Assembly: GCF_030159955.1 (NCBI RefSeq)
Contig: NZ_BSNK01000001.1
Span: forward strand, 682,001 to 746,000
Length of the DNA: 64,000 bases
Source: Algimonas ampicilliniresistens
GTDB taxonomy: Bacteria; Pseudomonadota; Alphaproteobacteria; Caulobacterales; Maricaulaceae
Reading direction: 5' to 3'
Part shown: one piece after another, positions 1 through 15,100 of the stretch
Layout of the letters: the number at the start of each line of letters is the position of its first letter
Numbering within the stretch: the stretch's first letter is position 1
Position numbers and translations under genes: made by a program
Notes under the pieces: generated by a model
The model's input: the letters and a program-made list of their open reading frames with translations, nothing else
Told to the model about the DNA's origin: nothing
The model's database searches: none

Positions 1-6
1 CCCATC

Positions 7-21
7 CCCGATCAGATCGGG
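7..21. promoter_or_regulatory. Perfect 15-bp palindrome upstream of the GTA cluster
   Basis: Two 7-base arms, CCCGATC and GATCGGG, flank a single A about 50 bases before the first GTA gene. It could be the end of a terminator for a gene left of the window, or an operator for the GTA promoter. No T-tract follows on the + strand, which argues mildly against a terminator. The sequence further upstream is not visible, so the role is undecided. Confidence 0.3.
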
Positions 22-71
22 TCATTGGGTAGACACATCCTCGTCTGTCAGGGCCGACGCATAGTTGGTCC

Positions 72-368
72 ATGACCGATTTAACCACGCCCGATCCGCA
101 CCGCGCCGCAGCCCTGATTGCTCAGTTACAAGATAGGCTATTGGCGTTGGGCCAGGATGATGGGTCGCTCCCGACCGCGGAAATCGAAAAAACTGCCAAG
201 GCGATCAACGTCCTAATCGACAGTCTTGAGAAGGCCGACCAATTCCTAGCCGAATGCGGTGAAACGGCTCGGCTTGGGGATCGGTTGACAGGGCCGTCGC
301 GGCAGACATTGCTACGCAAAATCAAGCGCATGGTTGAAAATGGCGTGCTGGACGAACTCGATGAGTAG
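72..368 (+). CDS. Putative GTA small terminase subunit (g1-like)
   Basis: A 98-residue acidic, mostly helical protein with no recognisable enzyme motif. Its place directly before the large terminase and its length match gene g1 of the Rhodobacter capsulatus GTA, whose product is the small terminase that presents DNA to the packaging motor. The ATG at 72 has no strong ribosome binding site. The stop overlaps the start of the next gene by 8 bases, implying translational coupling. The assignment rests on position, size and helical character rather than on a conserved motif. Confidence 0.65.
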   Translation: MTDLTTPDPHRAAALIAQLQDRLLALGQDDGSLPTAEIEKTAKAINVLIDSLEKADQFLAECGETARLGDRLTGPSRQTLLRKIKRMVENGVLDELDE

Positions 369-1620
369 TCACGCAAAGCTCGGTTTAGGTCCAGTCGAAA
401 TTGATAATGTGCTGCGCGGCTGGAAGGCTCAGGCCCGATCTGATCAGATCGCGCCGGATGATCCTAACTGGTCGATCTGGATGGTGCTGGGTGGCCGCGG
501 ATCGGGCAAAACCCGTGCGGGCGCGGAGTGGGTGTTGGAGCAGGTCAGGCGCGGCGCCGTTCGGATCGCGCTCGTAGCGCCGACCTTACACGATGCGCGT
601 GAAGTCATGCTCGGCGGGGATAGTGGGCTGCTCAATGCTGACTTCAGAAATGAACGCCCCCGTTATGAGCCGACCCGGCGACGTGTTTTGTTTCCGAATG
701 GGGCGATTGGCTATCTCTTTTCCGCGTATGACCCCGACAGTCTGCGCGGTCCGCAGTTTGATTGCGCGTGGGGCGATGAATTCTGCGCGTGGGCGGACCC
801 CGATGCAGTGCTGTCAAACCTGCGTCTGGGACTAAGATTGGGGACGAGGCCCAGACTGTGTCTGACCAGCACTCCGCGTCCGATTGCTGCGCTCGACAGA
901 TTGCTAGCTGATCCAGCGACGCGGTTGAGCAAAGCGCGGACCCACGACAATGCGGACAATCTCGCGCCCGGTTTCATTGCGGCGATGGAGGCGACCTATG
1001 GCGGGTCAAGCTTGGGCCGACAGGAATTAGACGGTGAGATTGTACGCGATCATCCCGGCGCGATTTTTCAACGCGCCGATATCGACACAGCGCGGGTGAC
1101 AGACGCTCCACTCCTGGACCGGATTATCATCGCACTTGATCCCCCCGCGACATCTGGCCGTAATGCGGACGCATGCGGCATCATTGTGGTCGGTCGTTGC
1201 GGAGAGGGGCGAAAGGCAGAAGGCTACGTTCTCTATGACGGTAGCTTATCCCGCGCCCGCCCGGAGGTCTGGGCCGCGCGAACCGTCGATCTTTTTCACG
1301 CTTATGACGCGGACTGTATATTGGCAGAAACCAATCAGGGAGGTGAGATGGTTGAGGCCGTCATTCACCAAATTGACCCAGATGTGCCAGTTCAGCGTCG
1401 TCATGCCCGTCGGTCGAAATCCACCCGCGCTATGCCTGTCGGCCTGCTTTACGCGCGTGGGCGGGTACATCATGTCGGGCGGTTTGATGCGCTCGAAGAT
1501 GAGCTCTGCGCTTTTGGCGGGCCGCATCAAAATGGAAGTCCTGATCGGATGGATGCGTTGGTCTGGGCCGTGGCTGACTTGCTTCTGAGGCAATCCCAGC
1601 CGAATTTGCGATTTCTTTAA
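361..1620 (+). CDS. GTA large terminase (DNA packaging ATPase/nuclease)
   Basis: A 419-residue packaging motor that translocates DNA into the prohead and cuts it headful-wise. Walker A is GGRGSGKT at residues 44-51 and the Walker B acidic pair is D139-E140 in AWGDEF. The C-terminal RNase H-like nuclease shows an ALDPP aspartate, an AETNQ glutamate and a DRMDA aspartate. An in-frame ATG at 334 exists, but the ATG at 361, overlapping the upstream stop by 8 bases, fits the cluster's coupling pattern. Size and motifs match RcGTA g2. GTA terminases package essentially random host DNA. Confidence 0.93.
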   Translation: MSSHAKLGLGPVEIDNVLRGWKAQARSDQIAPDDPNWSIWMVLGGRGSGKTRAGAEWVLEQVRRGAVRIALVAPTLHDAREVMLGGDSGLLNADFRNERPRYEPTRRRVLFPNGAIGYLFSAYDPDSLRGPQFDCAWGDEFCAWADPDAVLSNLRLGLRLGTRPRLCLTSTPRPIAALDRLLADPATRLSKARTHDNADNLAPGFIAAMEATYGGSSLGRQELDGEIVRDHPGAIFQRADIDTARVTDAPLLDRIIIALDPPATSGRNADACGIIVVGRCGEGRKAEGYVLYDGSLSRARPEVWAARTVDLFHAYDADCILAETNQGGEMVEAVIHQIDPDVPVQRRHARRSKSTRAMPVGLLYARGRVHHVGRFDALEDELCAFGGPHQNGSPDRMDALVWAVADLLLRQSQPNLRFL

Positions 1621-1666
1621 CGTCGCATTTACTACAATTCTTCATTCATATACCCATGCAATTGGA

Positions 1667-1686
1667 AACCGCCGTGCATGGCGGTT
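1667..1686 (+). promoter_or_regulatory. Hairpin abutting the ribosome binding site of the extra GTA gene
   Basis: Arms AACCGCC (1667-1673) and GGCGGTT (1680-1686) form a perfect 7-bp stem with a 6-base loop. It ends directly before the GAGGAG ribosome binding site of the gene at 1699. There is no T-tract, so it is not an obvious terminator. A role in translation control or RNA protection is an inference. Confidence 0.4.
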
Positions 1687-1698
1687 GAGGAGCCAAGT

Positions 1699-2142
1699 AT
1701 GGCGCAACACGCAAAAACAAAACGTCGTCAGATGGCTGATCTGCAGATTGAGCTGCGAAGCACAGATCGGCAACTTGGTCAGCTCAATTGGGAATTGGCG
1801 CAAGAATTGGTGACACTCGCGGATCAAGCCAATGACCCGGCCCCGCTCATCCAGGCCGTAGAGGCCCTTCGTTCTGCCACGCGCTACTACACATTCGAAG
1901 ACGCACCGCGCGAACATGCGATGATCCAGAAAGCAATTGCGGATACGTTGCTGTCTCTTGGTCAAAAGACTGGGGATCGGGATGCATTGACGACGGCGCG
2001 CGATGCCTATCGCGGGGCGATCACACTGGCATCCCTTCTGTCTGACGAGGAACTCCGCGAGAGCTTGCGGAAGAGCTACAAGACGACCCAGACATTGCTC
2101 GGCGATCTTCCGCAGAACCCGTCCCTGTTTCAGGTCGCTTAA
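1699..2142 (+). CDS. Helical (TPR-like) protein inserted in the GTA cluster
   Basis: A 147-residue soluble protein of amphipathic helices. Residues about 40-120 read like degenerate tetratricopeptide units, with repeated A-x3-Y/L spacing and phrases such as ATRYYTFED and ARDAYRGAI. It has no signal peptide and no catalytic motif. The ATG at 1699 is preferred over 1678 because GAGGAG sits at 1687-1692. It lies between the terminase and portal genes, where the R. capsulatus GTA has none, and the gaps on both sides (78 and 120 bases) break the otherwise overlapping layout. It may be a lineage-specific assembly factor or an unrelated insertion. I do not recognise its family with certainty. Confidence 0.6.
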   Translation: MAQHAKTKRRQMADLQIELRSTDRQLGQLNWELAQELVTLADQANDPAPLIQAVEALRSATRYYTFEDAPREHAMIQKAIADTLLSLGQKTGDRDALTTARDAYRGAITLASLLSDEELRESLRKSYKTTQTLLGDLPQNPSLFQVA

Positions 2143-2262
2143 ATCCTAGTCAATTCAATGTTCTACGTGTAAATCGCGTAGATGGGTCCCCGGCGTTCCG
2201 GGAGGCCCCATAAATCCCCTATCGCTGCTCAAAGGGTTTGGGCATCGAAGGGAACCACCTTC

Positions 2263-3399
2263 ATGAAATTGCCATTTACCGGACGCCATACGGTGTCCGA
2301 CGCTAGCGATGCGCCCGAAACAAAAAGCGGCACATCGGCTCAAACACCATTGGTCGCGGTAGAATTATCCCGCCAAGCTTGTTTCACCAACCCAGACTTT
2401 GGATCGCTTTGCCGCGAAGGCTTTGCCCGCAATCCGATCGTCTATCGCTGCGTCCGGATGATTGCAGAGGGCAGCGCATCTGTTCCCTTGCGCGGCGAGG
2501 GCCTGCCAGCGGAGTCCTCTGAAGCGCTGGAGCGTTTCTACAGCTACTTACAAGTGGCCGGCTGCGCCTATCTCGAGGCTGTCTTGCTGGGGGACGAGGT
2601 GATTGGCCTTCGTGCGGTGCGTCCAGACACTGTGACACCGCTTACGGATGCGGCAGGGCGGCCTGCGGGGTTTGAAGTTCGCTCAGAGAGCGGTCGCCGC
2701 CTATTCCGGCGCGATCCGCTCACGGATCGTTGCGGGGTTATGGCGCTCGCCCTGTTTAATCCAATGGACGAAGCGGCAGGGCAGTCACCCTTGCGTGCTG
2801 CCGCAACTAGCGTCGATTTGCATAATCAAGGCACACGCTGGGCCAAGGCCCTGCTTGATAACTCCGCGCGACCCTCCGGCGCTCTTGTTTACAAGGGTGG
2901 GGCTGGGGAGCGTCTATCTCGTGATCAAATTGACCGGTTGAAGGTTGAACTGGAAGCGGGCTTCACTGGACCTGCTCGGGTGGGTCGTCCGATGGTTCTG
3001 GAAGGCGGACTTGACTGGAAGACGATGGGGCTCAGCCCATCAGACATGGACTTCACACAGGGTCGACGCGAAGCGGCGCGCGACATCGCGCTCGCCTTCG
3101 GTGTGCCGCCGATGCTCCTCGGCATTCCGGGCGACAATACCTATTCCAATTACGCCGAAGCCAACCGCGCTTTTTGGCGTCAAACTGTGATCCCGCTGGT
3201 CGGACGCACGGCCAGAGCCATGTCGGCTTGGCTTTCGACCTTCGGTGAAGAGGTCACTTTATCGCCGGATCTAGACGCCGTGTCGGCCCTTGCGCCTGAA
3301 CGCACGGCACTTTGGGCTCGGCTTAATGCAGCTAGCTTTATTGACGCGGATGAACGCCGCGCGCTCGCCGGATTAGCGCCTCGGGAGACAGTTCAATGA
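2263..3399 (+). CDS. GTA portal protein (HK97 family)
   Basis: A 378-residue dodecameric portal forming the DNA entry vertex and the head-tail junction. The sequence shows family features: PIVYRCVRMIAEG near the N-terminus, NSARPSGALVYKGG mid-protein, and the DIALAFGVPPMLLGIPGDNTYSNYAEA block, which is highly typical of HK97-type portals. The frame is open from 2182, but the first 27 codons look like leader sequence, and ATG 2263 gives a normal portal N-terminus. The stop overlaps the next start by 4 bases. It corresponds to RcGTA g3. Confidence 0.93.
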   Translation: MKLPFTGRHTVSDASDAPETKSGTSAQTPLVAVELSRQACFTNPDFGSLCREGFARNPIVYRCVRMIAEGSASVPLRGEGLPAESSEALERFYSYLQVAGCAYLEAVLLGDEVIGLRAVRPDTVTPLTDAAGRPAGFEVRSESGRRLFRRDPLTDRCGVMALALFNPMDEAAGQSPLRAAATSVDLHNQGTRWAKALLDNSARPSGALVYKGGAGERLSRDQIDRLKVELEAGFTGPARVGRPMVLEGGLDWKTMGLSPSDMDFTQGRREAARDIALAFGVPPMLLGIPGDNTYSNYAEANRAFWRQTVIPLVGRTARAMSAWLSTFGEEVTLSPDLDAVSALAPERTALWARLNAASFIDADERRALAGLAPRETVQ

Positions 3400-3635
3400 G
3401 CGCAACGCTGAAACTCGAACGCACCGTGACGCTCGGATTGATCGCCACGCTTTTTTTACAAACAGCAGGCGCCCTAATCTGGGTTGGCGGTGCTGAAGCC
3501 CGGATCGAAGAGCTAGAGCGCAACCTCGACATTAATTGGAGTATTAATGAGCGGTTGGCCCGGCTGGAGGGTGAAACCGCTATGATGCACCAGATGCTGC
3601 GCCGGATCGAAGTGGCGCTCTACGATGAGGATTAG
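3396..3635 (+). CDS. Small GTA protein with one membrane segment and a coiled coil (g3.5-like)
   Basis: A 79-residue protein. Residues about 12-32 are hydrophobic, and residues about 35-75 form a charged heptad-like helix (ARIEELERNL, ERLARLEGE). A small gene sits at the same place, between portal and prohead protease, in other GTA clusters (g3.5). Its function is not established. It overlaps the portal gene by 4 bases and the protease gene by 11. A role as a membrane-associated assembly or scaffold factor is only a guess. Confidence 0.6.
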   Translation: MSATLKLERTVTLGLIATLFLQTAGALIWVGGAEARIEELERNLDINWSINERLARLEGETAMMHQMLRRIEVALYDED

Positions 3636-4095
3636 TGGCTACGCCTCGCGCTTTGATGAGCGGGATGCGAGCGGAGACAAAGTGCGGCGCGGGGCCTTCT
3701 CCGCATCGTTGCTGTCACGCGTCAAACCGATCCCCATGCTGAGCGACCATCAACGCCGGATTGGTGTTTGGGACCGCGCGGTCGAAGATCAATATGGGCT
3801 CTATGTCGAAGGGCGTGTGTCTGATCCTGCCCTACAGAGACTGATCCGAAAAGGTCGGGTGAGGGGCTTATCGATTGGCTTCCGTACACGACGCGCCAAA
3901 GTCGGTTCTCACCCGAATTTGAGGTCCGGCCTTTCATCGCGAGACTTGCTCGATCTCGACCTCAAGGAAGTCTCCGTCGTTGCCTTCCCGATGCTGCGCT
4001 CTGCACGGATCGACCAAATCTCAGATGACCAGATTTCAGATGATCAAATCACAGACGACCAAACCGAACGCACCAACCACAGGAGACCTGCGTGA
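3625..4095 (+). CDS. GTA prohead maturation protease (HK97 U35 family)
   Basis: A 156-residue serine protease that trims the capsid protein during prohead maturation. Family landmarks are the opening ISGYASRFDERD, the catalytic histidine H42 in LSDHQ, the serine S83 in GLSIGF and the acidic residue in LKEVSVV. It matches RcGTA g4. The C-terminus carries three near-identical five-residue units (QISDD, QISDD, QITDD) encoded by a degenerate 15-base tandem repeat. The gene overlaps g3.5 by 11 bases and the capsid gene by 4. Confidence 0.92.
   Translation: MRISGYASRFDERDASGDKVRRGAFSASLLSRVKPIPMLSDHQRRIGVWDRAVEDQYGLYVEGRVSDPALQRLIRKGRVRGLSIGFRTRRAKVGSHPNLRSGLSSRDLLDLDLKEVSVVAFPMLRSARIDQISDDQISDDQITDDQTERTNHRRPA
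4017..4061 (+). repeat. Degenerate 15-bp tandem repeat, three copies, in the protease gene
   Basis: Three consecutive units of the form CAAATCTCAGATGAC, diverged at a few positions, encode the QI(S/T)DD repeats near the C-terminus of the prohead protease. The array is in frame and lies after the protease core. It suggests recent local duplication in an unconstrained tail. Confidence 0.6.
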
Positions 4096-5255
4096 CTATC
4101 ACGACCCTAGAAACTAAAATGATGAATCCGGATCAGTCCGACGATTTTGCCGCCACCTTTGCGGCCTTTCGCGATGCGAATGACGAACGGCTCGCGGAAA
4201 TCGAAAAGAAAAATATCACCGACCCGCTGCTTGAAGCCAAGGTCGACCGCATCAATAGGCGGTTAGAAACGCTCTCCGTCAGCCTATCCCAACCGGCCCT
4301 GCAGTCAGCGCGTGATGAGACCAAATCGGCGTGGTCCCGCTTCATCCGTTCAGGCGATGAGACAGCCTTGAACGAGGCAAAATCGCTGTCCTCGACGGAC
4401 GGAGACGGCGGTTATGTCGCCCCGGTTGAGACGGAAAGTCGGATTGATGCCGTGCTGACCGAAGCCTCTCCATTCCGGCGCATTGCTACGGTGCGTAAGA
4501 TCGGCAGCGGCCAGTTCCGCAAGCCTGTCAGCACGACGTCAGCCATTGCAGGCTGGGCGGGCGAAACAGATGCGCGGCCTGAGACAACGGCGCCGACACT
4601 GGCCCTGCTCGATTTCCCCGCAGGTGAACTCTATGCGATGCCCGCGGCAACGCAGGCGCTGCTGGATGACAGTGTCGCCGATGTTGATGCATGGCTGGCC
4701 GAAGAGGTTCGCGATGTGTTTGCGGCGCAAGAAACGGCGGCGTTCGTTTCTGGTGACGGGGTCAATAAGCCGCGCGGGATTCTGTCCTATCAAGCCGGAA
4801 CCGACGCTCTGAGCGCGATCACGACGGGCACAGCGAACGGTTTCACGCCGAGTGATCAGTACGACACATTGATGGACCTGATCTATACGCCGAAATCCCA
4901 TTATCGACCGGGCGCGAGTTTCGTCATGAACCGCCGCACTCTGTCTGAGATCCGCAAGATCAAAGACGTCGATGGCAATTATGTCTGGACGCCGGGTGCG
5001 GAAGCCGGGCAGCCGAGCCAGCTTCTTGGTTACGCGGTGACAGAAGCTGAAGATATGCCAGACATGAATACGGGCGGGTTTGCGGTCGCCTTTGGTGATT
5101 TCCGTCGCGGTTATCTGATCGCGGATCGACAAGGCGTCCGCGTGTTACGCGACCCCTATTCCGCCAAGCCCTATGTGCTGTTCTATACAACCAAGCGTGT
5201 CGGAGGCGGGGTCCAAGACAAGGACGCGATCGCGCTGCTTGAGTTCGCAGCCTAG
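4092..5255 (+). CDS. GTA major capsid protein (HK97 fold)
   Basis: A 387-residue shell protein. The first ~100 residues are charged and helical, like the delta/scaffold domain removed by the prohead protease. The HK97 core follows (DGGYVAPVETESRID, EASPFRRIATVRKI, FVMNRRTLSEIRKIKD, GFAVAFGDFRRGYLIADRQG). The start is GTG at 4092, with AGGAG at 4081-4085 six bases upstream and a GTGA overlap with the protease stop. An ATG a few codons inside is weaker. A terminator follows directly. It corresponds to RcGTA g5. Confidence 0.95.
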   Translation: MTITTLETKMMNPDQSDDFAATFAAFRDANDERLAEIEKKNITDPLLEAKVDRINRRLETLSVSLSQPALQSARDETKSAWSRFIRSGDETALNEAKSLSSTDGDGGYVAPVETESRIDAVLTEASPFRRIATVRKIGSGQFRKPVSTTSAIAGWAGETDARPETTAPTLALLDFPAGELYAMPAATQALLDDSVADVDAWLAEEVRDVFAAQETAAFVSGDGVNKPRGILSYQAGTDALSAITTGTANGFTPSDQYDTLMDLIYTPKSHYRPGASFVMNRRTLSEIRKIKDVDGNYVWTPGAEAGQPSQLLGYAVTEAEDMPDMNTGGFAVAFGDFRRGYLIADRQGVRVLRDPYSAKPYVLFYTTKRVGGGVQDKDAIALLEFAA

Positions 5256-5302
5256 CCAGCGGTGACCCTGCGTTTCGACGCAGCCACATCCAATCATTTA
5301 TC

Positions 5303-5335
5303 ACCCATCGGCGGTTTCGCCGGTGGGTTTTTCTT
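5303..5335 (+). terminator. Rho-independent terminator after the GTA capsid gene
   Basis: A 10-bp stem (arms 5303-5312 and 5319-5328, one G-T pair) closes a six-base loop and is followed by a T-rich run to 5335. It sits 47 bases after the capsid stop and about 24 before the next start, inside the structural operon. The likely effect is partial termination, giving much more capsid than connector and tail message. Confidence 0.8.
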
Positions 5336-5359
5336 TGCCGTTTCGGAGGGACCCTAACC

Positions 5360-5860
5360 ATGTTGATTGACTTACAACCCCCGCCTGTCGAGCCAATTAC
5401 GCTCGCTGAGGCCAAAGCCTTTATTCGCGTCGATCACGATGATGAGGACGCGCTGATCACCACACTAATTGCATCTGCACGTGACCAGCTCGAAGCCTAT
5501 CTTAACACCGCCATGATTGCGCGGCCGATGCAGGTGAGCGTGCCAGCCGCCTGCGAAGTTCGGTTGCCGCGCTGGCCCGTGATGAGTGTTGAAACCGTCC
5601 TATCAGACGGCGTTGAGATATCTGAGTATCACGTCGATTTGCGCCGTCGTCCTGCCACCCTGTCGGTCTTTGCGACGGACCATATCGAGATCGCCTTCAC
5701 AGCTGGGTATGGCTTAGGTCCAGAAGATGTGCCCGCGCCCTTGCGTCAGGCCATGCTGCTGCTGGTGTCGTGCGGGTTTGAGCACCGCGATATCGATGCT
5801 GACACCATGCCACTCATGGTTGATGCGCTGACCATGCCCTACCGGGTGGTCGGACTATGA
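5360..5860 (+). CDS. GTA head-tail connector protein (gp6-like)
   Basis: A 166-residue adaptor that docks on the portal. The N-terminal PITLAEAKAFIRVDHDDEDALITTLI helix pair is the signature of the phage gp6-like connector family and matches RcGTA g6. A TTTCGGAGGG ribosome binding site precedes the ATG at 5360. This is the first gene after the internal terminator. Its stop overlaps the next start as ATGA, and the chain of overlaps then continues to the end of the cluster. Confidence 0.88.
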   Translation: MLIDLQPPPVEPITLAEAKAFIRVDHDDEDALITTLIASARDQLEAYLNTAMIARPMQVSVPAACEVRLPRWPVMSVETVLSDGVEISEYHVDLRRRPATLSVFATDHIEIAFTAGYGLGPEDVPAPLRQAMLLLVSCGFEHRDIDADTMPLMVDALTMPYRVVGL

Positions 5861-6174
5861 TAGGGCAACTCAGGCACCGATTGGGCCTTTATGCGCCGAG
5901 CCGGATCGCAGATGATCTTGGCGGCACAATCACCAGCTGGTCGTTCCAACGCGCCATCTGGGGCGCGGTGGAACCAAAATCTCTAAGCGAAACGCGCGAA
6001 AACGGGCGGCTCGCGGTCACCCAGACCTACCGCGTCACGGTGCGCCATATGGATGATTTTCCAGAACGCGCCCGCCTTGTTTGGCGGGGACGAACATTGC
6101 GCATTGTCGCCGCATCCGATCCGGATACGCGCCGCGAACGGTTACATTTGATCTGTGAAGAAGAAGTCCGATGA
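5857..6174 (+). CDS. GTA head closure / head-tail joining protein
   Basis: A 105-residue beta-rich protein of the phage head-tail joining family (SPP1 gp16-like), corresponding to RcGTA g7. Typical features are the opening RHRLGLYAPSRIADDLGG, the central IWGAVEPKS and the C-terminal RLVWRGRTLRIVAASDPD. It closes the connector channel and presents the docking surface to the tail. ATGA overlaps occur on both sides. Confidence 0.87.
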   Translation: MIGQLRHRLGLYAPSRIADDLGGTITSWSFQRAIWGAVEPKSLSETRENGRLAVTQTYRVTVRHMDDFPERARLVWRGRTLRIVAASDPDTRRERLHLICEEEVR

Positions 6175-6584
6175 GCGCGCTTAACTTAGCAGCGGATGCG
6201 CTGATCATGCAGCAAACTCTGCACGCGGCGCTGGCGAACGATCTGGCCGTAACGGCCACGCTGGGTGACCCCATCCGGGCCTTTGACGATACGCCCGATG
6301 ATCCGGTCTATCCCTATCTCACCTATGGCCAGATCCGGTCGGAGGATACGAGCGGGGACGCGGCACCGCAATCGACACACCAGATGACCCTGCATCTGTG
6401 GAGCCGGTATGCTGGTCGCGCTGAAGTGTTCGATCTCTTGCGTATGGTTTCAGATACGATCCGGGACAGCGTGCCGCACACAGTCTTGCCGCTTTACACG
6501 GATGTGTTTCGCGCTCCCGATGGGAGGACCTTCCACGGACTGCTGCGCCTGTCCGTCACACTGACATTGGAGACAACGGCATGA
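6171..6584 (+). CDS. GTA tail terminator (DUF3168)
   Basis: A 137-residue DUF3168 protein matching RcGTA g8. It caps the tail tube and joins it to the head. Recognised by DDPVYPYLTYGQ, THQMTLHLWSR and the C-terminal GLLRLSVTLTLE strand. It overlaps both neighbours by 4 bases. The position between head closure and major tail genes supports the call. Confidence 0.87.
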   Translation: MSALNLAADALIMQQTLHAALANDLAVTATLGDPIRAFDDTPDDPVYPYLTYGQIRSEDTSGDAAPQSTHQMTLHLWSRYAGRAEVFDLLRMVSDTIRDSVPHTVLPLYTDVFRAPDGRTFHGLLRLSVTLTLETTA

Positions 6585-6997
6585 CTGCTACTCATACACC
6601 TCAGCGCGGTCGCGATATGTTGCTGAAGATCGAAGATGGCGGGGCTTATTCGACGGTCGCTGGGCTTCGTACCAAGTCGATCCGGATGAATAGTCAGACG
6701 GTCGATGTGACCGATCAAGCATCGAATGGGTGGACAGAGCTGCTGCCAGAAGCGGGCATAAGGTCGGTCAGCGTGACCGGGTCCGGTGTGTTCCGAGACG
6801 CGGACTCTGACGCCCGCGTGCGGTCCGCTTTCTTCGCGCAAGAGGCCGTCAATGCGCAGATGATTGTGCCGGAATTTGGTACGATTACGGCGTCCATGTT
6901 GGTCACTGGATTGACCTATGGTGGCACCTTCAAGGGTGAGGCGAGCTTCGAGCTGACCTTGGTCAGCGCCGGCGAGCCGAGCTTCATACCCGCATGA
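6581..6997 (+). CDS. GTA major tail tube protein
   Basis: A 138-residue tail tube subunit of the TP901-1-like family (RcGTA g9), forming stacked rings around the tape measure. The family reads RGRDMLLKIEDGGAYSTVAGLRTKS at the start, VDVTDQASNGW, and GEASFELTLVSAGEPSFIPA at the end. ATGA overlaps on both sides. Confidence 0.9.
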   Translation: MTATHTPQRGRDMLLKIEDGGAYSTVAGLRTKSIRMNSQTVDVTDQASNGWTELLPEAGIRSVSVTGSGVFRDADSDARVRSAFFAQEAVNAQMIVPEFGTITASMLVTGLTYGGTFKGEASFELTLVSAGEPSFIPA

Positions 6998-7278
6998 TCC
7001 ACGCTTCGGAGTTTCGATCCGGTGATGTGACGACTGAGATCGGGACATTACGTTTAACCATCTGTGGATTGGCGGAGATGGCGCAGACTTTGGACGCGCC
7101 AGATCCCGTCGCTCTCGCCACCCGCATCCGGGTTTTGAACCCGGACATGGCGCGCCACCTACTTACCGCCTTGCTGCGTCCCTCCGGCGCAAACGGTGTG
7201 GTGGCGCGCCTCTCAGACACGCAGATTGTCGAGCTTATGCCAGCGGCCTCCCGCTGTATCGGGCAGGCGCTGTCATGA
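6994..7278 (+). CDS. GTA tail assembly chaperone (g10-like)
   Basis: A 94-residue protein of the GTA g10 family, thought to act as a tail assembly chaperone that coats the tape measure before tube assembly. It contains short sheets followed by helices (FRSGDVTTEIGTLRLTICGLAEM). In many phages this role is split over two products joined by a frameshift. Here it is followed by a separate small gene, with an ATGA overlap at 7275-7278. Confidence 0.8.
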   Translation: MIHASEFRSGDVTTEIGTLRLTICGLAEMAQTLDAPDPVALATRIRVLNPDMARHLLTALLRPSGANGVVARLSDTQIVELMPAASRCIGQALS

Positions 7279-7448
7279 GCTGGCCTTTCCAAGCTTGGCA
7301 CCGACTGGCTGTGCGTCACCTCCATCTCGACCCGTCCGAATTCTGGGCCATGCCGCTGCGGGATTGGTTGGTGCTGATTTCGCCAGACACACCCGCGCTC
7401 GACCGGACGGCCCTGACTCAATTGATGAAAGACTATCCCGATGACTGA
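7275..7448 (+). CDS. Short GTA tail chaperone partner (g10.1-like), 57 residues
   Basis: A 57-residue gene, easy to miss because of its size. It starts MSWPFQAWHRLAVRHLHLDP and has SEFWAMPLRDWLVL in the middle, a pattern typical of the tiny phage tail chaperones found after g10 in GTA clusters (aromatic motif plus FW). It starts in an ATGA overlap with g10 and its stop overlaps the tape-measure start by 8 bases. The tight overlaps and the family motif make it a real gene. Confidence 0.82.
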   Translation: MSWPFQAWHRLAVRHLHLDPSEFWAMPLRDWLVLISPDTPALDRTALTQLMKDYPDD

Positions 7449-7836
7449 TTTAGATGAAGCTGCAGACGCCATTGCGGCGTTCGACGCGGCGCCCGCTGTG
7501 CAAAGCGCAGGCGAGATCGCCGATGCGTTTGAAGCCGCCGGTGCCCGCATCTCCCGTTCACTTGAAAACGCGGCCAGGAACGGAGAGCTGTCCTTCAATG
7601 GGATGGCGGAAACTGTGCTGAGCGATTTAGCCAGGCTCGCTGTCGGTGAACTGATCGAAGCCCCGCTCAACGCTTTAGTCGATAGTCTGACAAACGGTCT
7701 CGGCAAAGCCAGCAGCAATACCACCGTCAATCTCAATGTCAGCGGCTCGAGTGATCCGGTCGGTTTCCGTCGCTCCGAAGGGCAGATTGCGGCGACGCTC
7801 GCGCGGGCGGTCTCGCTCGGTCAGCAGAGGATTTAA
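7441..7836 (+). CDS. Very short GTA tape measure protein
   Basis: A 131-residue helical protein in the g11 position. The C-terminal part (NLNVSGSSDPVGFRRSEGQIAATLARAV) is the conserved end of GTA and lambda-type tape measures. The central LSDLARLAVGELIEAPLNALVDSL is an amphipathic/hydrophobic helix. The R. capsulatus counterpart is about 219 residues as I recall, so this one is markedly shorter. Since tape length sets tube length, a stubby tail is implied, or part of the ruler role lies elsewhere. Seven bases of overlap precede it and a 2-base gap follows. Confidence 0.78.
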   Translation: MTDLDEAADAIAAFDAAPAVQSAGEIADAFEAAGARISRSLENAARNGELSFNGMAETVLSDLARLAVGELIEAPLNALVDSLTNGLGKASSNTTVNLNVSGSSDPVGFRRSEGQIAATLARAVSLGQQRI

Positions 7837-7838
7837 AT

Positions 7839-8441
7839 ATGGCTTTTCACGATGTTAGTTTTCCGCTGACTTTGGCCTTTGGTGCCAGTGGTGGGCCGAC
7901 CCGCGCGGTGGATATTGTCGAATTGGCGAGCGGTCGAGAGACGCGCAATACGGCCCAAAGCCGCGCACGCCGCCGTTATAATGCTATGACGGGCGTGAAG
8001 TCTGTTGAGGACGCTCGCATGCTGTCCGACTTTTTTGAAGCGCGGTCCGGCGCGTTGCACAGTTTTCGGTTTCGTGACCCCGTCGATCATAGCTCCGGCA
8101 GTGACCAGCCGAACCTCAGCGATCAGATCATCGGCACTGGCGACGGAACGACAACGACGTTCCAGTTGGCCAAACGATATAGTGATGTCATTCGCCCGAT
8201 CACATTGCCCATTCCGGATAGCCTTCTCGTTGCCGTCAACGGCGTCTCTGTTCCGTTCTCATTGGCAGAGGGTGGGATAGTCGAAATCGATGCACCGCAG
8301 TTCGGCGCGAGTGTGACGGCTGGGTTTTTGTTTGATGTGCCTGTGCGCTTTGATACCGACTCGCTCACTCTCTCGCTCGACACGCATAGTGCGGTCTCCG
8401 TGACCGATATTCCTCTGATCGAGGTGTTCGATCATGCGTAA
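7839..8441 (+). CDS. GTA distal tail protein (DUF2460)
   Basis: A 200-residue DUF2460 protein matching RcGTA g12, which forms the ring at the lower end of the tail tube. The family opening FHDVSFPLTLAFGASGGP, the ALHSFRFRDPVDH segment and the GTTTTFQLAKRY block are clear. AGAGGA lies upstream of the ATG at 7839. It overlaps the hub gene by 8 bases. Confidence 0.9.
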   Translation: MAFHDVSFPLTLAFGASGGPTRAVDIVELASGRETRNTAQSRARRRYNAMTGVKSVEDARMLSDFFEARSGALHSFRFRDPVDHSSGSDQPNLSDQIIGTGDGTTTTFQLAKRYSDVIRPITLPIPDSLLVAVNGVSVPFSLAEGGIVEIDAPQFGASVTAGFLFDVPVRFDTDSLTLSLDTHSAVSVTDIPLIEVFDHA

Positions 8442-9069
8442 CCTATCACCGGAGTTGGAAGCGCATCTAGCCAGCGGCACGACGACCCTATGTCTATTAT
8501 TCATTCTAACGCTTGCCGATACACGACGCTTTGCTTTCACGGATCATGATTGTGCGTTGGATTTTGAGGGTCTGACGGCGCGTCCAATGCAAGCGGCTGA
8601 GACGGAACAACGCGCCGGGTTCGACGCTGATTCCGGCGCGCTCAAGACTGTTTTCGATGTAGATTTGTCACGAGATGATCTCCTGTCTGGAGCGCTGGAT
8701 GGGGCGATGCTTGCTGAGCACTGCGTCAACTGGGCAGACCCCTCACAATCCATGCTTATTACGACTGGGCGCATCGGTGCGGTCACGGTGAGTGGTGACG
8801 GGTTTGAGGCTGACTGGCTGGGTCAGTCCACGCTTCTAGATCGCTCCACTGGACGGGTCTTCTCACGACGTTGCGATGCGGAATATGGAGACGCACGTTG
8901 CGGGCTGACGGCTCAATTGGGCCAAAGCTGCGCGGGAACACTGGACGCCTGCAAGGGGCTTGGAAATACGCTCAACTATAGAGGTTTTCCATATTTGCTC
9001 GGCGATGATGTCCTGCAAAAGGGCGTTCACCTTACGCCGACCCGCGACGGTGGCTCCCGCTATGCGTGA
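8434..9069 (+). CDS. GTA tail hub protein (DUF2163) with a four-cysteine C-terminal motif
   Basis: A 211-residue baseplate hub protein corresponding to RcGTA g13. The N-terminal DUF2163 part includes FTDHDCALDFEGLTARP. The C-terminal part has four cysteines at residues 147, 156, 166 and 173 (RRCDAEYGDARCG, SCAGTLDACKG). In lambda gpL and the RcGTA hub, such cysteines hold an iron-sulfur cluster, so the same is likely here. Overlaps of 8 bases with both neighbours. Confidence 0.87.
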   Translation: MRNLSPELEAHLASGTTTLCLLFILTLADTRRFAFTDHDCALDFEGLTARPMQAAETEQRAGFDADSGALKTVFDVDLSRDDLLSGALDGAMLAEHCVNWADPSQSMLITTGRIGAVTVSGDGFEADWLGQSTLLDRSTGRVFSRRCDAEYGDARCGLTAQLGQSCAGTLDACKGLGNTLNYRGFPYLLGDDVLQKGVHLTPTRDGGSRYA

Positions 9070-9496
9070 GAACGTGTTGGCCGTCGCGCGCGACTGGCTC
9101 GATACACCCTATCAGCATCAAGCCTCCGTTCAGGGTGCGGGCTGTGATTGTCTTGGTTTGATCCGGGGCATTTGGCGCAAGCTCTATGGCGCAGAGCCTG
9201 AAAAGCCACCCAATTACACGCCGGATTGGGCCGAAGCGCAGGGCGAGGAAACTCTGCTTCACGCAGCCCGCCGCTGGCTACTGCTGACCGCCGATCCGCA
9301 GCCCGGCGATGTTCTGCTGTTTCGGATGAATGCGGGCAGCCCGTGCAAACATGTTGGCATCCTCGCACCCGAGGACAGGCTGATCCACGCCTATTGGGGT
9401 CGGGCTGTGGTGGAGAGCTGGCTTCATCCCTTCTGGGCGCGGCGGATCGCCTTCGCCTTTTCCTTTCCACCGCTTCCGACTGAGGATCCGTCATGA
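9062..9496 (+). CDS. GTA NlpC/P60 cell-wall peptidase
   Basis: A 144-residue tail-associated peptidase (RcGTA g14) expected to cut peptidoglycan peptides during DNA entry. The catalytic set is C30 in GCDCLGL, H97 in CKHVGIL and H109 in LIHAYWG. The frame is open from 8960, but ATG 9062, overlapping the hub stop by 8 bases, gives the standard start RENVLAVARDWLDTPY. It ends in an ATGA overlap with the tail-tip gene. Confidence 0.92.
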   Translation: MRENVLAVARDWLDTPYQHQASVQGAGCDCLGLIRGIWRKLYGAEPEKPPNYTPDWAEAQGEETLLHAARRWLLLTADPQPGDVLLFRMNAGSPCKHVGILAPEDRLIHAYWGRAVVESWLHPFWARRIAFAFSFPPLPTEDPS

Positions 9497-12400
9497 CGAC
9501 TCTGGCCATTCAAGGCATTGGTGCCTTCGCGCGCGGCGGTGTCAAAGCTCTCACCAGCCTCGCTCTATCCACTGCGACCAGCGTGATTACGCGCGCACTC
9601 GATGATCGGGTCTTTGAAGGGCCGCGATTGGACAGCTTCCATTTGCAAACCTCACGCGACGGCGCCCCAATGCCGCGCGTCTTTGGACGGATTCGGTTGG
9701 CCGGACAGGTTATCTGGGCCAGTCAGGTCCGCGAACAATTCAGCGAGGCACAGGTCGGCGGAAAAGGCGGTGGGCCAACAAGGCGGGACTATAGTTATTC
9801 CATCAGCTTCGCCGTTGGCCTGTGCGAAGGTGAAATTCTTGGGGTAGACCGCATTTGGGTCAATGGCGAAGTCCTGCAACGGGTTGGACTGACCGTGCGC
9901 GTGCATACAGGCTCAGACTTACAGGTGCCGGACCCGGTGATCGCTGCCACCGAACCCGGCGACGTGCCAGCTTTTCGCGGCACAGCTTATATCCTGTTCG
10001 AAGATTTCCCGCTGGATGATTATGGGTCAAGGCTGCCGATCATCAATGCGGAAGTTGTTCGCGGCATAAGGCGCGGCGACCGGATGGAAGATTTAATTCA
10101 ATCCGTGAATTTGATGCCAGGGACCGGGGAGTTCGCCCTGTCGCCAACCATCGTCGAGGACACGCCATCAGTTGGTGTGACCACCCCGGCAAACATGAAC
10201 AGTTTCTCAGGCCAAGCAGACTTGCTGACATCGCTCGATCAGCTGCAAGCCGAACTTCCAAACTGCAAACATATCAACATCATCTGCTCTTGGTTCGGGA
10301 CCTCCATCAATGCGGGGACCTGCTTGGTCCAGCCCGGTGTGGAGCGTACCAGCCGAAGGCTGCAAGACGTCGAATGGCGTGTGGCCGGGGAGGACCGCAG
10401 CTCCGCCTATATCGTTAGCGCTGACGCAGAAGGGCGTCCCAACTATGGCGGCACGCCGAGCGATGAGAGCCTAATCGCTTGCATCAGGGAATTGAAGCAG
10501 CGTGGATTTGCGGTGACGCTCTATCCGTTTCTGCTAATGGACACGCCCGGCTTCCCGTGGCGTGGATGGATCGCGCCGACCTCTGCCGCTGATGTTGACG
10601 CGTTTTTTGGGACTGACGAGGATTTCCGATTTCGTCATCATATCCTGCATCATGCGCGTCTTTCCGTAGATGCAGGTGGGGTCGATGCCATCGTGATTGG
10701 GTCGGAGTTGAAAGCGTTGATGGCGTTTCGAGAAGAGACTGATTTCCCAGCCGTTGAGGCGATGCGTCAGCTCTCAAGTGACACACGTGCTATCGTCGGC
10801 ACGGGGACAAAGATCACGTACGCGGCGGACTGGTCGGACTATTTCGGGCTGCAGGATGGCGGCGATGTGGACTATCATCTCGATCCGCTCTGGGCGGATG
10901 AAAATATCGATGCTGTTGGCATCGACGCCTACTTCCCGCTCGCTGATTGGCGCGACGGGGTGCCGATAGACGCGACCGATGGACATAATGGTCATGATCT
11001 CGACTATCTCCTCTCCAACGTGGAAGGGGGCGAGGGGTACGATTGGTACTATGCCAGTCCAGCCGACCGAGATATCCAGCTACGAACGCCGATTGATGAT
11101 CCGGTCTATCGTTTCAAAGATATGCGTAACTGGTGGCGCACGCCGCACATCAACCGCAAGAACGGGCTGCTTACGACGCAGAGCCCGTGGCAGCCAAAAT
11201 CCAAACCGATCTGGTTGCTAGAAATTGGATGCCCCGCCATTGATAAGGGTGCGAACCAGCCCAATGTTTTTTATGATGAAAAATCATCTGAATCGGCGCT
11301 GCCATATTATTCCGATGGAACGCGCGATGATCTGATCCAAAGGCGCTATATTGAAGCGCTTTTGGGCCATTATCAGGCGACCAATCAGCCGGGTTTTCTC
11401 GATTTGTCTCGGGCCTCCGTCTGGACATGGGATGCGCGGCCCTATCCGGACTTTCCGGCGCGGACTGATGTGTGGTCGGATGGTGACAATTGGATGCGGG
11501 GGCATTGGTTGAACGGACGCACCGGTCTGTTGCCTGTCGCCGATGTCATCGAAGAGTTGGCCCGCGATAGCGGGCTGACCGCGATTGACGTGTCGGGTGT
11601 ATCCGGCGTGCTTCCGGGCTACCGATTGGACCGCCCCATGAGTGCTCGTGCTGCGCTGGCTCCGTTGCTGCAACTCTTCGATATCGACATGCATGAAAAG
11701 GGCGGGGATGTTGTCTTTACCCTTGGTGGTCCACAGGCTCTGTCATTAAATGAGGCTGATCTTGTCCGGGGGCCGGCGCGTCGCGTGCGCTCAGATCCAG
11801 AAGGTCGGATCAAGGATGTCCGGCTGACCTATATTGATGCGGCCCGTGATTATCAGCTTGGCGCCGCATCGGCCCGGCAACTGGATGCTGAATCGGTCGC
11901 CATAGCTGATCTCGCCGTCCCGGCTGCGCTGGATGAAGGCTTCGCGCGGTTTGTCGCCCGGCGGGAACTGGACGCTGCCCACGCGGGGCAGGAAGGTTTG
12001 CGCCTGTCTTTGCCGCTGAATACCGGCTTACGGCTCGAACTGGGTGACCGCTTCAGCTATGACAACACCAGCTGGGTCACGCAGTCATTGGAGATTGGAT
12101 CACAGGTCGATGTGACCGCGCTCAGGGATAGGGGCGGTGCTAGAGCATGGGTGGCGGGGTCGACACCTGGCACTCCCTTTGCACCTGATTATGCGGGTGC
12201 CGCGCAATTACTGGCTTTCGATTTGCCGGGCAGGGACGGTATTAGTGTGGGTGCGCTGATTGACCCGTATGAACCGGTTACAGTGCAAGTGGATGGCTCT
12301 GAAGCGACGCTCAATGCGCCTTTAAGGATCGGTGCCACGTTGACGGATTTTCCATCCGGTTCCGTTCTTCTTTACGACCAGAGGTCAACAGTCGACGTGT

Positions 12401-13011
12401 TGTTCGGAAATCTGACACTGAGTGGTACGACGGACGAGGGGTTGCTTGCAGGGGCCAACCGCTTCGCCGTGGAAACCGCAACGGGGTGGGAGGTATTTGC
12501 AGCGCGGGATACCGAATTGATCGCCCCGCAGACCTATCGCTTATCTCATTTCTTGCGCGGCCTTGAGGGTAGCGAGCCTTTCATGGCTGAGGTTGTTTTG
12601 TCTGGCGCGAGAGTTCTGTGGCTTGGAACGGGATTGATCAGCCTGCCAATATCCTCTGATCATCGGGGCAGTGTGGTAAGCGTAACGGGTCAGACCATTC
12701 GACGGGAGGCCCGAGACGGTGAAGTCATTTGGAATGACTTAGCGGGGCTTCCATTATCCCCTGTGCATTTGCGTTGGGACGGAACGAGCTTGGCCTGGAT
12801 CGGGCGCGATCGAAGTTTTTCGGAATGGACGGAAGACGAGTCTAGCCTGCAATACCGCCTGCGTATTACGCGGTCGGGTGAGGTGCAGACCGTCGATACG
12901 GCTTTGACCGAACTGGCTTTGCAGCCATTTGATCAGGTCGAGATCGTTCAACTTACGCCCGATGGTCGCGAGAGTCTTTTGTCAGCAGCGTTGAATGTAG
13001 CGGGCGCATGA
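9493..13011 (+). CDS. GTA tail-tip megatron with TIM-barrel domain (host recognition)
   Basis: A 1172-residue tail tip corresponding to RcGTA g15, which contacts the recipient surface. Order: an N-terminal hub-like part (GLCEGEILGVDRIWVNGE); a GTA TIM-barrel-like domain at about residues 240-640, with strand-end glutamates near residues 400 (IVIGSELKAL) and 576 (WLLEIGCPA); a phage tip J-like segment (LPGYRLDRPMSARAALAPLL); and a beta-rich Rcc01698-like C-terminus (HFLRGLEGSEPFMAEV). The glutamate pair resembles that of retaining glycoside hydrolases, but activity is unproven. It is the last gene of the structural cluster. Confidence 0.93.
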   Translation: MTTLAIQGIGAFARGGVKALTSLALSTATSVITRALDDRVFEGPRLDSFHLQTSRDGAPMPRVFGRIRLAGQVIWASQVREQFSEAQVGGKGGGPTRRDYSYSISFAVGLCEGEILGVDRIWVNGEVLQRVGLTVRVHTGSDLQVPDPVIAATEPGDVPAFRGTAYILFEDFPLDDYGSRLPIINAEVVRGIRRGDRMEDLIQSVNLMPGTGEFALSPTIVEDTPSVGVTTPANMNSFSGQADLLTSLDQLQAELPNCKHINIICSWFGTSINAGTCLVQPGVERTSRRLQDVEWRVAGEDRSSAYIVSADAEGRPNYGGTPSDESLIACIRELKQRGFAVTLYPFLLMDTPGFPWRGWIAPTSAADVDAFFGTDEDFRFRHHILHHARLSVDAGGVDAIVIGSELKALMAFREETDFPAVEAMRQLSSDTRAIVGTGTKITYAADWSDYFGLQDGGDVDYHLDPLWADENIDAVGIDAYFPLADWRDGVPIDATDGHNGHDLDYLLSNVEGGEGYDWYYASPADRDIQLRTPIDDPVYRFKDMRNWWRTPHINRKNGLLTTQSPWQPKSKPIWLLEIGCPAIDKGANQPNVFYDEKSSESALPYYSDGTRDDLIQRRYIEALLGHYQATNQPGFLDLSRASVWTWDARPYPDFPARTDVWSDGDNWMRGHWLNGRTGLLPVADVIEELARDSGLTAIDVSGVSGVLPGYRLDRPMSARAALAPLLQLFDIDMHEKGGDVVFTLGGPQALSLNEADLVRGPARRVRSDPEGRIKDVRLTYIDAARDYQLGAASARQLDAESVAIADLAVPAALDEGFARFVARRELDAAHAGQEGLRLSLPLNTGLRLELGDRFSYDNTSWVTQSLEIGSQVDVTALRDRGGARAWVAGSTPGTPFAPDYAGAAQLLAFDLPGRDGISVGALIDPYEPVTVQVDGSEATLNAPLRIGATLTDFPSGSVLLYDQRSTVDVLFGNLTLSGTTDEGLLAGANRFAVETATGWEVFAARDTELIAPQTYRLSHFLRGLEGSEPFMAEVVLSGARVLWLGTGLISLPISSDHRGSVVSVTGQTIRREARDGEVIWNDLAGLPLSPVHLRWDGTSLAWIGRDRSFSEWTEDESSLQYRLRITRSGEVQTVDTALTELALQPFDQVEIVQLTPDGRESLLSAALNVAGA

Positions 13012-13025
13012 CTAAATAGTCGGTG

Positions 13026-13994
13026 ATGGCGAAGAAAAATCCATATGATTTGCTGGGTGTCCCGAAGACCGCAACGGATAAAGAAATCCGTTCGGCCTAT
13101 CGAAAGCTGGCCAAGAAACTTCATCCGGATGTGAATCCGGACGATAAAACGTCAGGCGAACGCTTCAAGGAAGTGACGGCGGCCTATAATCTTCTCTCTA
13201 ACGAAGACCTCCGTAAGCAATATGATAGCGGCGCGATCGATGAGCAGGGTCAGCAACGCAATCCGTTCGCAGGTGGATTTGGCCAGAGAGGCGGGAGTGG
13301 GCCGGGCTACGAGACTGGCTTTGGTGGTTTTGAGGGCTTTGGCGGTCGCGGCGGCGGTCAAATGGGTCAGGACGATATGACCGACCTGTTCGGGTCGCTG
13401 TTTGGTATGAATACGGGTAGTTTTGCGGGCGGTATGCGCGGCGGAACGAACCGCCCGCCCGTTCGCCGGAAAGGCGCAGACATTCAGTACACGGTGGACC
13501 TATCCCTGCCTGAAGCGCTGAAAGGCGGAATGCGCCAATTACCGAGCGGGACGAAAGTCCGCATTCCGGCCGGCATCAAAAATGGCCAGACCTTGCGTGT
13601 TCGGGGCAAGGGCGAATCAGGCAGTGGCGGCGGTCCGGCAGGCGATGCCTTGGTGAAAGTCAGCGTCCAATCTCATCCTAATCTTTCGCGAAGTGGTGAT
13701 GACCTTCAGCTCCGCCTTCCCATAAGTCTCACAGAGGCGCTGAGAGGCGGCTCTGTTCGCATTGAGATGCCGAGCGGTGCGGTGAGTCTTAAGATTGCGC
13801 CGGGATCGAATACTGGCAAGAAGATGCGGCTAAAGGGCAAGGGCGCACCCGGTAAAGGCAAGAATCGCGGCAATTTGATTGTGGAATTAGTCGTTACTCT
13901 GACGGACGCTGAACTGGCTCAGTCGGACGATCTTACCAAATCTTTGCCCGAAACAAACGGCGCTGCACTTCGTGACGGCCTGATTGGTAGTTAA
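13026..13994 (+). CDS. Class B J-domain co-chaperone (CbpA/DnaJ-like)
   Basis: A 322-residue Hsp40 that stimulates DnaK ATPase and delivers clients. The J domain covers residues 1-70 with HPD at 33-35. A Gly/Phe-rich linker (about 80-140) and two C-terminal substrate-binding beta domains follow (DLSLPEALKGG, LPISLTEALRGG). The zinc-finger CxxCxGxG repeats are absent, so this is not canonical DnaJ. GTG 13023 is an alternative start one codon earlier. It follows the GTA tail-tip gene by about 14 bases without a terminator and may be co-transcribed. Confidence 0.9.
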   Translation: MAKKNPYDLLGVPKTATDKEIRSAYRKLAKKLHPDVNPDDKTSGERFKEVTAAYNLLSNEDLRKQYDSGAIDEQGQQRNPFAGGFGQRGGSGPGYETGFGGFEGFGGRGGGQMGQDDMTDLFGSLFGMNTGSFAGGMRGGTNRPPVRRKGADIQYTVDLSLPEALKGGMRQLPSGTKVRIPAGIKNGQTLRVRGKGESGSGGGPAGDALVKVSVQSHPNLSRSGDDLQLRLPISLTEALRGGSVRIEMPSGAVSLKIAPGSNTGKKMRLKGKGAPGKGKNRGNLIVELVVTLTDAELAQSDDLTKSLPETNGAALRDGLIGS

Positions 13995-14042
13995 ACACCA
14001 TATTCAGTCTTCGTTCAGAGGGTCATGCATAGAGGGACGGCA

Positions 14043-14348
14043 ATGAAACGTATGACGCTCATAATTTCAGCCTTGATGCTTAGCCTGATCGGCACGCCGT
14101 CTTTGGCGTCGGCTCCGCAATGGATTCAAACTGATCGCGTGTCTGAGGCATCGACCGTGTCGCCTTATGACTATGCGCAGCGTCAAATTAGCGCCCGCGA
14201 GGCGAGAGCCATCGCCTTGGCGCGCGTCCCAGGCGGCGAAGTCGTCGATATTCGCCGGACCGCTGATGCTTATCGCGTTCGTATCATTGCCCGCGATGGC
14301 CGCGTTGTTGATATCGTGGTTGACGCCAATACCGGGCGCGTTCGATAG
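14043..14348 (+). CDS. Secreted PepSY-domain protein
   Basis: A 101-residue protein with a signal peptide (residues 1 to about 21, ending SLASA) and one PepSY domain (ISAREARAIALARVPGGEVVDIRR, then VVDIVVDANTGRVR). PepSY domains are often periplasmic inhibitors or sensors. AGAGGGA before ATG 14043 selects this start over 14025. It lies 44 bases before a PhoP-like regulator, and such small periplasmic proteins often modulate the adjacent kinase, as FeuN does for FeuQ in rhizobia. That link is an inference here. Confidence 0.8.
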   Translation: MKRMTLIISALMLSLIGTPSLASAPQWIQTDRVSEASTVSPYDYAQRQISAREARAIALARVPGGEVVDIRRTADAYRVRIIARDGRVVDIVVDANTGRVR

Positions 14349-14392
14349 CAACCCAACATCCCAACCTTTACAGGTAACGTGCGGAGACCCCC

Positions 14393-15070: not shown

Positions 15071-15100
15071 GCAAAATATTCGGGCAGGCGGCTAGCACGG

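Follow-up and report, generated by a model that had tools for sequence, protein, structure and literature searches.

The closest described counterparts of the locus considered here are two gene transfer agents (GTAs), those of Rhodobacter capsulatus (RcGTA) and of Caulobacter (CcGTA). In R. capsulatus, the activator gafA is one gene, usually located between lipA and gua1 (PMC6363796). In Caulobacter, it is split into the DnaA-like GafY and GafZ, whose genes, CCNA_01111-01112, lie apart from the structural cluster, CCNA_02880-02861 (PMC9632790), and that cluster has a known terminator after its first gene (PMC11150451). RcGTA-like clusters have been reported in 78% of Caulobacterales operational taxonomic units (PMC6821227). 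The DNA analysed here is a stretch of 64,000 nucleotides from Algimonas ampicilliniresistens (hereafter the window; bases 682001-746000 of contig C1, in a 3.26 Mb genome that is 99.65% complete). An earlier note, made from the letters of the window, had reported in it a complete RcGTA-type cluster. Indeed, positions 72 to 13011 of the plus strand carry the whole RcGTA-type head-tail set, g1 to g15, with every gene present, in RcGTA order and without internal stops. We are fairly confident that this is an alphaproteobacterial GTA of type I (RcGTA-like), passed on by vertical inheritance, and that it most likely retains the ability to make particles. This is supported by the ordered cluster, the matches to RcGTA chains in the PDB and to the GTA_megatron profile, the clade to which the capsid belongs, the adjacent gafY-gafZ pair, the presence of a DUF2793 gene, low substitution ratios on the locus's own branch and the lack of a recognisable integrase or phage repressor gene in the 14 kb left of the cluster. 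The locus adds an ordinary member to a kind of GTA already known; the adjoining activators, an extra gene (orfX), a terminator-like hairpin and the broken clusters of relatives are additions to the earlier account.

The structural gene cluster

Open reading frames and families were annotated gene by gene over 14 kb of left flank and through the window to position 16483, using Pfam, NCBIfam and PHROGs profiles, the PDB for structural homologues and tblastn in relatives. Position 1 is the first base of the window, and negative positions lie to its left (sequence L002). Features given with coordinates are on the plus strand unless stated otherwise.

The best PDB matches of three products are RcGTA chains: the major capsid protein g5 (4092..5255; HK97 capsid in Pfam; Rcc01687, E 2.7e-79), the portal g3 (2182..3399; HK97 portal in Pfam; E 3.1e-85) and the megatron g15 (9493..13011; E 2.3e-197), a multidomain host-interaction and tail protein that also carries GTA_TIM and scores 1139 bits against NCBIfam GTA_megatron, for a cut-off of 800. 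The comparison with RcGTA products that the earlier note had called for therefore bears out its assignment. The large terminase g2 (361..1620, with TTG 334 or ATG 361 as in-frame start) matches Pfam Terminase_6N/6C and the PHROGs terminase large subunit, and the prohead protease g4 (3625..4095) matches Pfam Peptidase_S78. Family matches likewise identify the head-tail connector g6 (5360..5860), the head closure protein g7 (5857..6174), the gp17-like tail completion protein g8 (6171..6584), the major tail tube protein g9 (6581..6997), the distal tail protein g12 (7839..8441; TIGR02217, the Rcc01695 family), the 211-residue baseplate hub g13 (8434..9069; Pfam and TIGR02218) and the NlpC/P60 peptidase g14 (9047..9496; TIGR02219).

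The other genes have weak family matches or none and owe their identity mainly to position and relatives. The putative small terminase g1 (72..368, 98 residues) has no family match in Pfam, NCBIfam or PHROGs searches, and its tblastn matches, of 40-60% identity, are limited to the closest relatives (L005/L129, L110, L111 and L128). The same applies to g3.5 (3396..3635), to the GTA gp10-like g10 (6994..7278), for which the Pfam match to Phage_TAC_11 is below cut-off (E 0.0074), and to the small frame g10.1 (7253..7444, with an uncertain start between 7196 and 7278), which has tblastn matches of 41-51% in L005, L011 and L110. A short tape measure protein, g11 (7441..7836), matches Pfam Tape_meas_lam_C, and its C-terminal match to RcGTA_tape is far below cut-off. 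Gene lengths are close to those in relatives.

The earlier description of the genes as mostly overlapping stands for 10 of the 17 junctions, where 4-11 bases are shared, and g1 and g2 overlap too, by 8 bases, if ATG 361 is taken as the start of g2. It passed over the gaps of 57 and 39 bases that flank orfX and that of 104 bases 3' to the capsid gene, which holds the hairpin. Differences from RcGTA are orfX, the hairpin and the short tape measure. The G+C content of the cluster is 58.3%, versus 55.3% in the remainder of the window and 54.4% in the left flank.

The activator genes and the flanks

GafY and GafZ are described as a split form of GafA, and the genes found here were named from the published descriptions of their domains (PMC9632790, PMC11150451); that DUF6456 is the domain of GafZ is our inference. 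The gafY gene (L002:12942-13271, window -1058 to -729) encodes 109 residues with a DnaA-C-type helix-turn-helix (Bac_DnaA_C profile). It overlaps by 4 bases gafZ (L002:13268-14032, window -732 to 32, its last 32 bases being window 1..32), which encodes a DUF6456 protein of 254 residues. The pair ends 39 bases 5' of g1. The gafA counterpart that the earlier note had proposed to look for elsewhere in the genome is thus directly upstream of the cluster, and it is the genome's only DUF6456 copy. It is split as in Caulobacter, and differs from both R. capsulatus and Caulobacter in adjoining the structural genes.

Activator and GTA_TIM profiles were surveyed in 60 genomes of the GTDB family f1, which is wider than Robiginitomaculaceae and also takes in Maricaulis-type hosts (L015 and L143 are from other f1 genera), and in 14 control genomes, among which Caulobacter vibrioides is the sole one to match DUF6456 and GTA_TIM; the comparison with Caulobacter drew on these profiles and on publications. 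Within the genus (19 genomes), gafY-gafZ lies within ~460 bases of g2 in 13, that is, in all those with a readable locus (the genome itself, L110-L114 and L128-L134). As for the other six, the contig of G062 ends inside orfX, the loci of G061, G067, G069 and G072 fall outside the count, and G066 has a gafZ fragment at a contig start, ~3.5 kb 5' of g2. The pair also adjoins the cluster in G012, from another genus. In f1 as a whole, DUF6456 and GTA_TIM are both present in 45 of the 60 genomes, on separate contigs in 23 and on the same contig in 22, at distances of 7-13.5 kb (n=5: four of the window's genus, and G012), 17-47 kb (n=10) or 151 kb to 2.03 Mb (n=7).

Besides gafY and gafZ, the left 14 kb contains a tRNA-like gene, a frame without family, an IS1595 transposase gene, PAS_5, MucR and Mrp-type antiporter genes, and UDG. 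The tRNA-like gene (90 nt, L002:12493-12582, window -1507 to -1418; Rfam tRNA, 54 bits) lies ~360 bases 5' of gafY. It has a tRNA-Ser-like body, with a long variable arm and 71-77% identity to phage tRNA-Ser genes, but has a CCA (Trp) anticodon and a U before CCA. By our own reading of its identity, this is a gene in decay or, alternatively, a tRNA that might be capable of misreading UGG. An attachment-site remnant was considered and rejected, no tRNA being called 5' of gafY in the 18 loci scanned (15 distinct places); the tRNA-Val of L011/L133, which are one place, sits within g8.

To the right, host genes for DnaJ, a PepSY protein, a response regulator and a histidine kinase (13023..16483) are neighbours and not GTA parts. 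The first, dnaJ, starts 11 bases 3' of g15, and these genes are retained in relatives with a broken GTA. A response regulator gene, together with a kinase gene where this was read, is found 3' of GTA clusters in several alphaproteobacterial groups (L015, L017, L146, L177); dnaJ intervenes in the window's group.

Selection on the cluster and its loss in relatives

One-ratio values of omega (dN/dS) were taken from the checkpoint files of IQ-TREE codon fits for 15 genes, and branch tests were made with our own codon-likelihood script on a tree that we fixed. Synonymous sites approach saturation, and in the capsid tree the window, L110 and the pair (L004, L005) are left unresolved. We discarded fits that stopped at the limit set on branch length, namely those for g15, gafZ and gafY on the branch of the window and for gafY on that of G056. 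The one-ratio omega ranges from 0.059 to 0.153. For the branch of the window alone, the values are 0.091 for g3 and g5-g9, 0.086 for g11-g14 and 0.053 for g2. The earlier note had named a dN/dS near 1, as a sign of relaxed selection, among the things that would speak against it; most genes, at about 0.05-0.09, are instead under purifying selection, g15 not being estimable and g3.5 with g4 being uncertain.

The nearest relatives are G060 (75%), G056 and G025 (70%) and G065 (68%) by terminase, and G062 (80%), G065 (78%) and G056 (77%) by capsid. G065 keeps the cluster genes, and so does G062 as far as its contig reaches. The remaining three have lost most of the cluster, through three different deletions. 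In G056, a single contig, g11-g14 are gone, as are the initial 850 residues of g15. In G025, the loss spans capsid residue 125 through g15 residue 866, and g4 is divided over different frames. No capsid match occurs anywhere in the G060 genome; its contigs end in g3 and resume at g15, which has an internal stop, and both contig ends share a 42-base inverted repeat, suggestive of an insertion element. More distantly, G012 has no g3-g14 between orfX and g15. The omega of g2 is raised in G025 (0.30 vs 0.1075, 2dlnL, twice the log-likelihood difference, 7.85) and not significantly so in G056 (0.19 vs 0.108, 2dlnL 2.75). The g3 and g5-g9 of G056 still look constrained (omega 0.089), so that low values are compatible with a recent loss of function.

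Several observations weigh against a working GTA. Three of the five closest relatives are broken. The GTA_TIM domain, detected in 47 of the 60 f1 genomes, has in the window the lowest score of the 43 full-span matches of that search. On the window's branch, omega for g3.5 with g4 is 0.32 vs 0.136 (2dlnL 3.3, not significant), and that of g15 is not estimable. The best PDB matches of g14 are cellular NlpC/P60 enzymes of the E. coli Spr/MepS type, with no RcGTA chain among them. Finally, holin and endolysin searches (PF11351 and PF05838) found no match here, nor in any control genome; Caulobacter is also described as being without an RcGTA-type holin/endolysin (PMC9632790), and release of its GTA uses LypABC (PMC13236601). 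The independent deletions, the low GTA_TIM score and the raised, though not significantly raised, omega of g3.5 with g4 could be taken together to mean that this GTA is on its way out: the cluster would read intact in a subclade that has largely lost selection for it, as a copy not yet deleted, and particles may be no longer made. We hold this to be quite unlikely, in view of an own-branch omega of 0.05-0.09 for most genes, versus the raised g2 of the broken G025, and of a window copy without stop or frameshift.

Relationship to phages and to other GTAs

Vertical inheritance also agrees with the capsid tree (27 rows, five of them phages). The window's capsid falls in a clade of 13 rows with loci of related hosts (Hellea, Algimonas, Litorimonas and others; support 100/99), with Maricaulis next. 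A clade of 18 rows (95/94) adds Maricaulis, Methylobacterium, Phyllobacteriaceae (Rhizobiales) and two records deposited as phages. All five phage rows are outside both clades. The window's capsid thus clusters with those of other GTAs in a way that tracks the hosts, and separately from phages. The Tranquillimonas and Sphingomonas GTA rows are an exception: they come out on the far side of the phages, at a weakly supported fork (69/91), and hence the tree does not unite all GTAs. The nearest named capsids are those of a Hellea metagenome-assembled genome (MAG; 78%) and an uncultured Algimonas MAG (77%), then Litorimonas and Robiginitomaculum (63%); all four genera belong to Robiginitomaculaceae, order Maricaulales, in the NCBI taxonomy. 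With such a Robiginitomaculaceae-like host, the locus falls outside Rhodogtaviriformidae, which were proposed for GTAs restricted to Rhodobacterales (PMC9662315).

The best true phage capsid is at most 47% identical (L182), and two better 'phage' records are GTA-bearing pieces of chromosome. The 18-kb record of 'Bacteriophage sp. 103231' (L146, GenBank MW091529.1) is a GTA cluster whose capsid groups with Rhizobiales GTAs; 3' of the cluster it has a response regulator (68% identical to the window's) and a histidine kinase (33%), labelled in the record as antibiotic efflux proteins. A 103-kb 'Bacteriophage sp.' record (L177, GenBank MW462191.1, 30330-63460) is annotated with a GTA cluster that adjoins genes for penicillin-binding protein, fimbrial proteins and cytochrome c biogenesis, and is apparently a piece of bacterial chromosome. 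The megatron also matches chain 8gtc_M (E 2.7e-167) of PDB entry 8gtc, which we take to be siphophage R4C. R4C, however, is a phage infecting Roseobacter (PMC10276861), whereas in the window no genes for phage replication are seen next to the structural genes.

A prophage or a recently acquired phage remnant is, to near certainty, ruled out: the cluster genes are of phage origin, and an IS1595 transposase gene and the tRNA-like one are found 1.4-3.6 kb to the left of g1, but the chromosomal neighbours are constant in relatives (gafYZ and MucR on the left, dnaJ and the response regulator on the right), the capsid clade tracks hosts, true phages are distant, and neither an integrase nor a phage repressor nor a replication gene is recognised in the 14 kb to the left, where integrase or repressor genes would have refuted the earlier note, or, as regards prophage-type genes, among the four genes right of g15. 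A domesticated phage of the RcGTA type, which that note had proposed, is the best reading of gene order, PDB matches, capsid clade and activator; g1, g3.5, g10 and g10.1 enter that order mainly by position.

orfX, a gene lodged in the operon

Between g2 and g3 lies orfX (1678..2142), which encodes a helical protein of 154 residues outside the RcGTA set. Pfam, PHROGs and NCBIfam searches gave no match. The AlphaFold model has five helices (mean pLDDT 87.9), and no PDB entry reached E <=0.001 in a Foldseek search, where the 50 rows listed were for the most part designed helical repeats and TPR-like proteins; an assignment to a known family was accordingly rejected.

In f1, 30 of 60 genomes have a match, strong in 25 (E <1e-18) and weak, to larger proteins, in five. 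Fifteen of the strong ones are within 12 kb of GTA_TIM and two (G025 and G056) are by a cluster that lacks it; in G042, where no GTA_TIM was found, orfX adjoins g3-g6 on a short contig. In G027, it stands at the dnaJ site with no GTA gene there, and in G019, G032 and G052 there are no GTA genes within 20 kb; these four genomes have neither GTA_TIM nor DUF6456 genome-wide. Contig breaks obscure the context in the last three (G011, G028 and G031). In G019 and G032 (among L116-L118), the neighbours of orfX are purA, identified by eye, and two long genes that resemble each other and have no known function. Across the order (201 genomes), 29 have a match, of which 15 are stand-alone genes, all in f1, and 14 are repeats within larger frames.

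Its place between g2 and g3 in many relatives' clusters, and the confinement of the stand-alone gene to f1, could suggest a GTA component or a GTA-specific regulator gained by this lineage. This seems rather unlikely to us, as many f1 genera with GTA_TIM have no orfX. Since orfX outlives the GTA and shows no shift in omega in relatives where the GTA is broken (0.119 and 0.116), we regard it as a probable host gene sitting within the operon.

A terminator-like hairpin after the capsid gene

The 104-base gap between g5 and g6 contains an 11-bp hairpin followed by a T tract, resembling an intrinsic terminator (5303..5337). A loose scan of the whole cluster gave 9 sites, versus 11.2 in shuffles, hence no excess, with the g5/g6 site as the strongest. 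Under a strict definition, a hairpin occurs at most 135 bases 3' of the capsid gene in 12 of the 20 loci of the group, versus 2 among 275 other gene ends and none among 400 mononucleotide shuffles. It lies farther on in two more, at +108 in L110 and at +1270, before g6, in L013, which makes 14 of 20. L008 and L131 have none on a wider scan and L009 and L124 none across the whole cluster; L120 and L130 were covered by the 135-base scan alone. Stem sequences vary between loci. None of 11 other loci, two of them from other f1 genera (L015 and L143), has such a hairpin. The p value of 1.5e-14 is too small, related loci having been treated as independent, and the counts matter more. Among the matches listed in a literature search, titles and the starts of abstracts held no report of a terminator after a GTA capsid gene; the known Caulobacter terminator differs in following the first gene.

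Another terminator-like site is present 5' of gafY. No strict-definition site was found between gafZ and g1, nor from g15 to the histidine kinase, and a single transcript running from gafY into the downstream host genes would be possible.

A tail-fibre-like gene

The genome's only DUF2793 gene, which is tail-fibre-like, is outside the cluster (L136:7193-8380, minus strand; contig C2 of the same genome, G000, at ~1.0602-1.0614 Mb). This resembles R. capsulatus, whose rcc00171 presumably carries the same domain. The product of the DUF2793 gene found here gives a weak tail-fibre match, to chain 8gtc_S (E 2.1e-4). The gene stands in a polysaccharide locus, among sugar-nucleotide, glycosyltransferase-like and ABC-exporter genes (functions read from their sequences), a setting that would fit a fibre kept beside receptor genes.

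A possible course of events and its significance

On the model of Caulobacter, one would expect GafY, whose gene lies just 5' of the cluster, to help RNA polymerase start, and GafZ to carry the polymerase past terminators, probably also past the hairpin that here follows the capsid gene. Synthesis of the head and tail proteins would come next, and the terminase would pack small heads with host DNA. Particles would presumably leave by a lysis step and bind to recipients, for transfer of that DNA, via the DUF2793 fibre encoded elsewhere. We would further suggest, as a tentative idea that may well prove wrong, that the GTA of this bacterial group is a self-contained switch, in which the activator pair at the head of the operon could drive both itself and the structural genes, and in which the capsid-gene terminator would split the head half from the tail half, the latter being reached only via GafZ or partial read-through. 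If so, the ratio of capsid to tail would be set and leaky particle production blocked.

The earlier note had called the particle little described in this lineage. This holds in so far as no GTA literature was found under Robiginitomaculum or Litorimonas, and is tempered by the frequency of RcGTA-like clusters in Caulobacterales. The locus adds a probably functional GTA to a family in which no GTA work came up under these two genus names. The recurrent hairpin provides a specific test case, outside Caulobacter, for the model of anti-termination by GafZ. Lastly, a single locus in this genus holds an intact cluster in some genomes and independently broken ones in others, a natural comparison through which the question of why GTAs are kept becomes testable.

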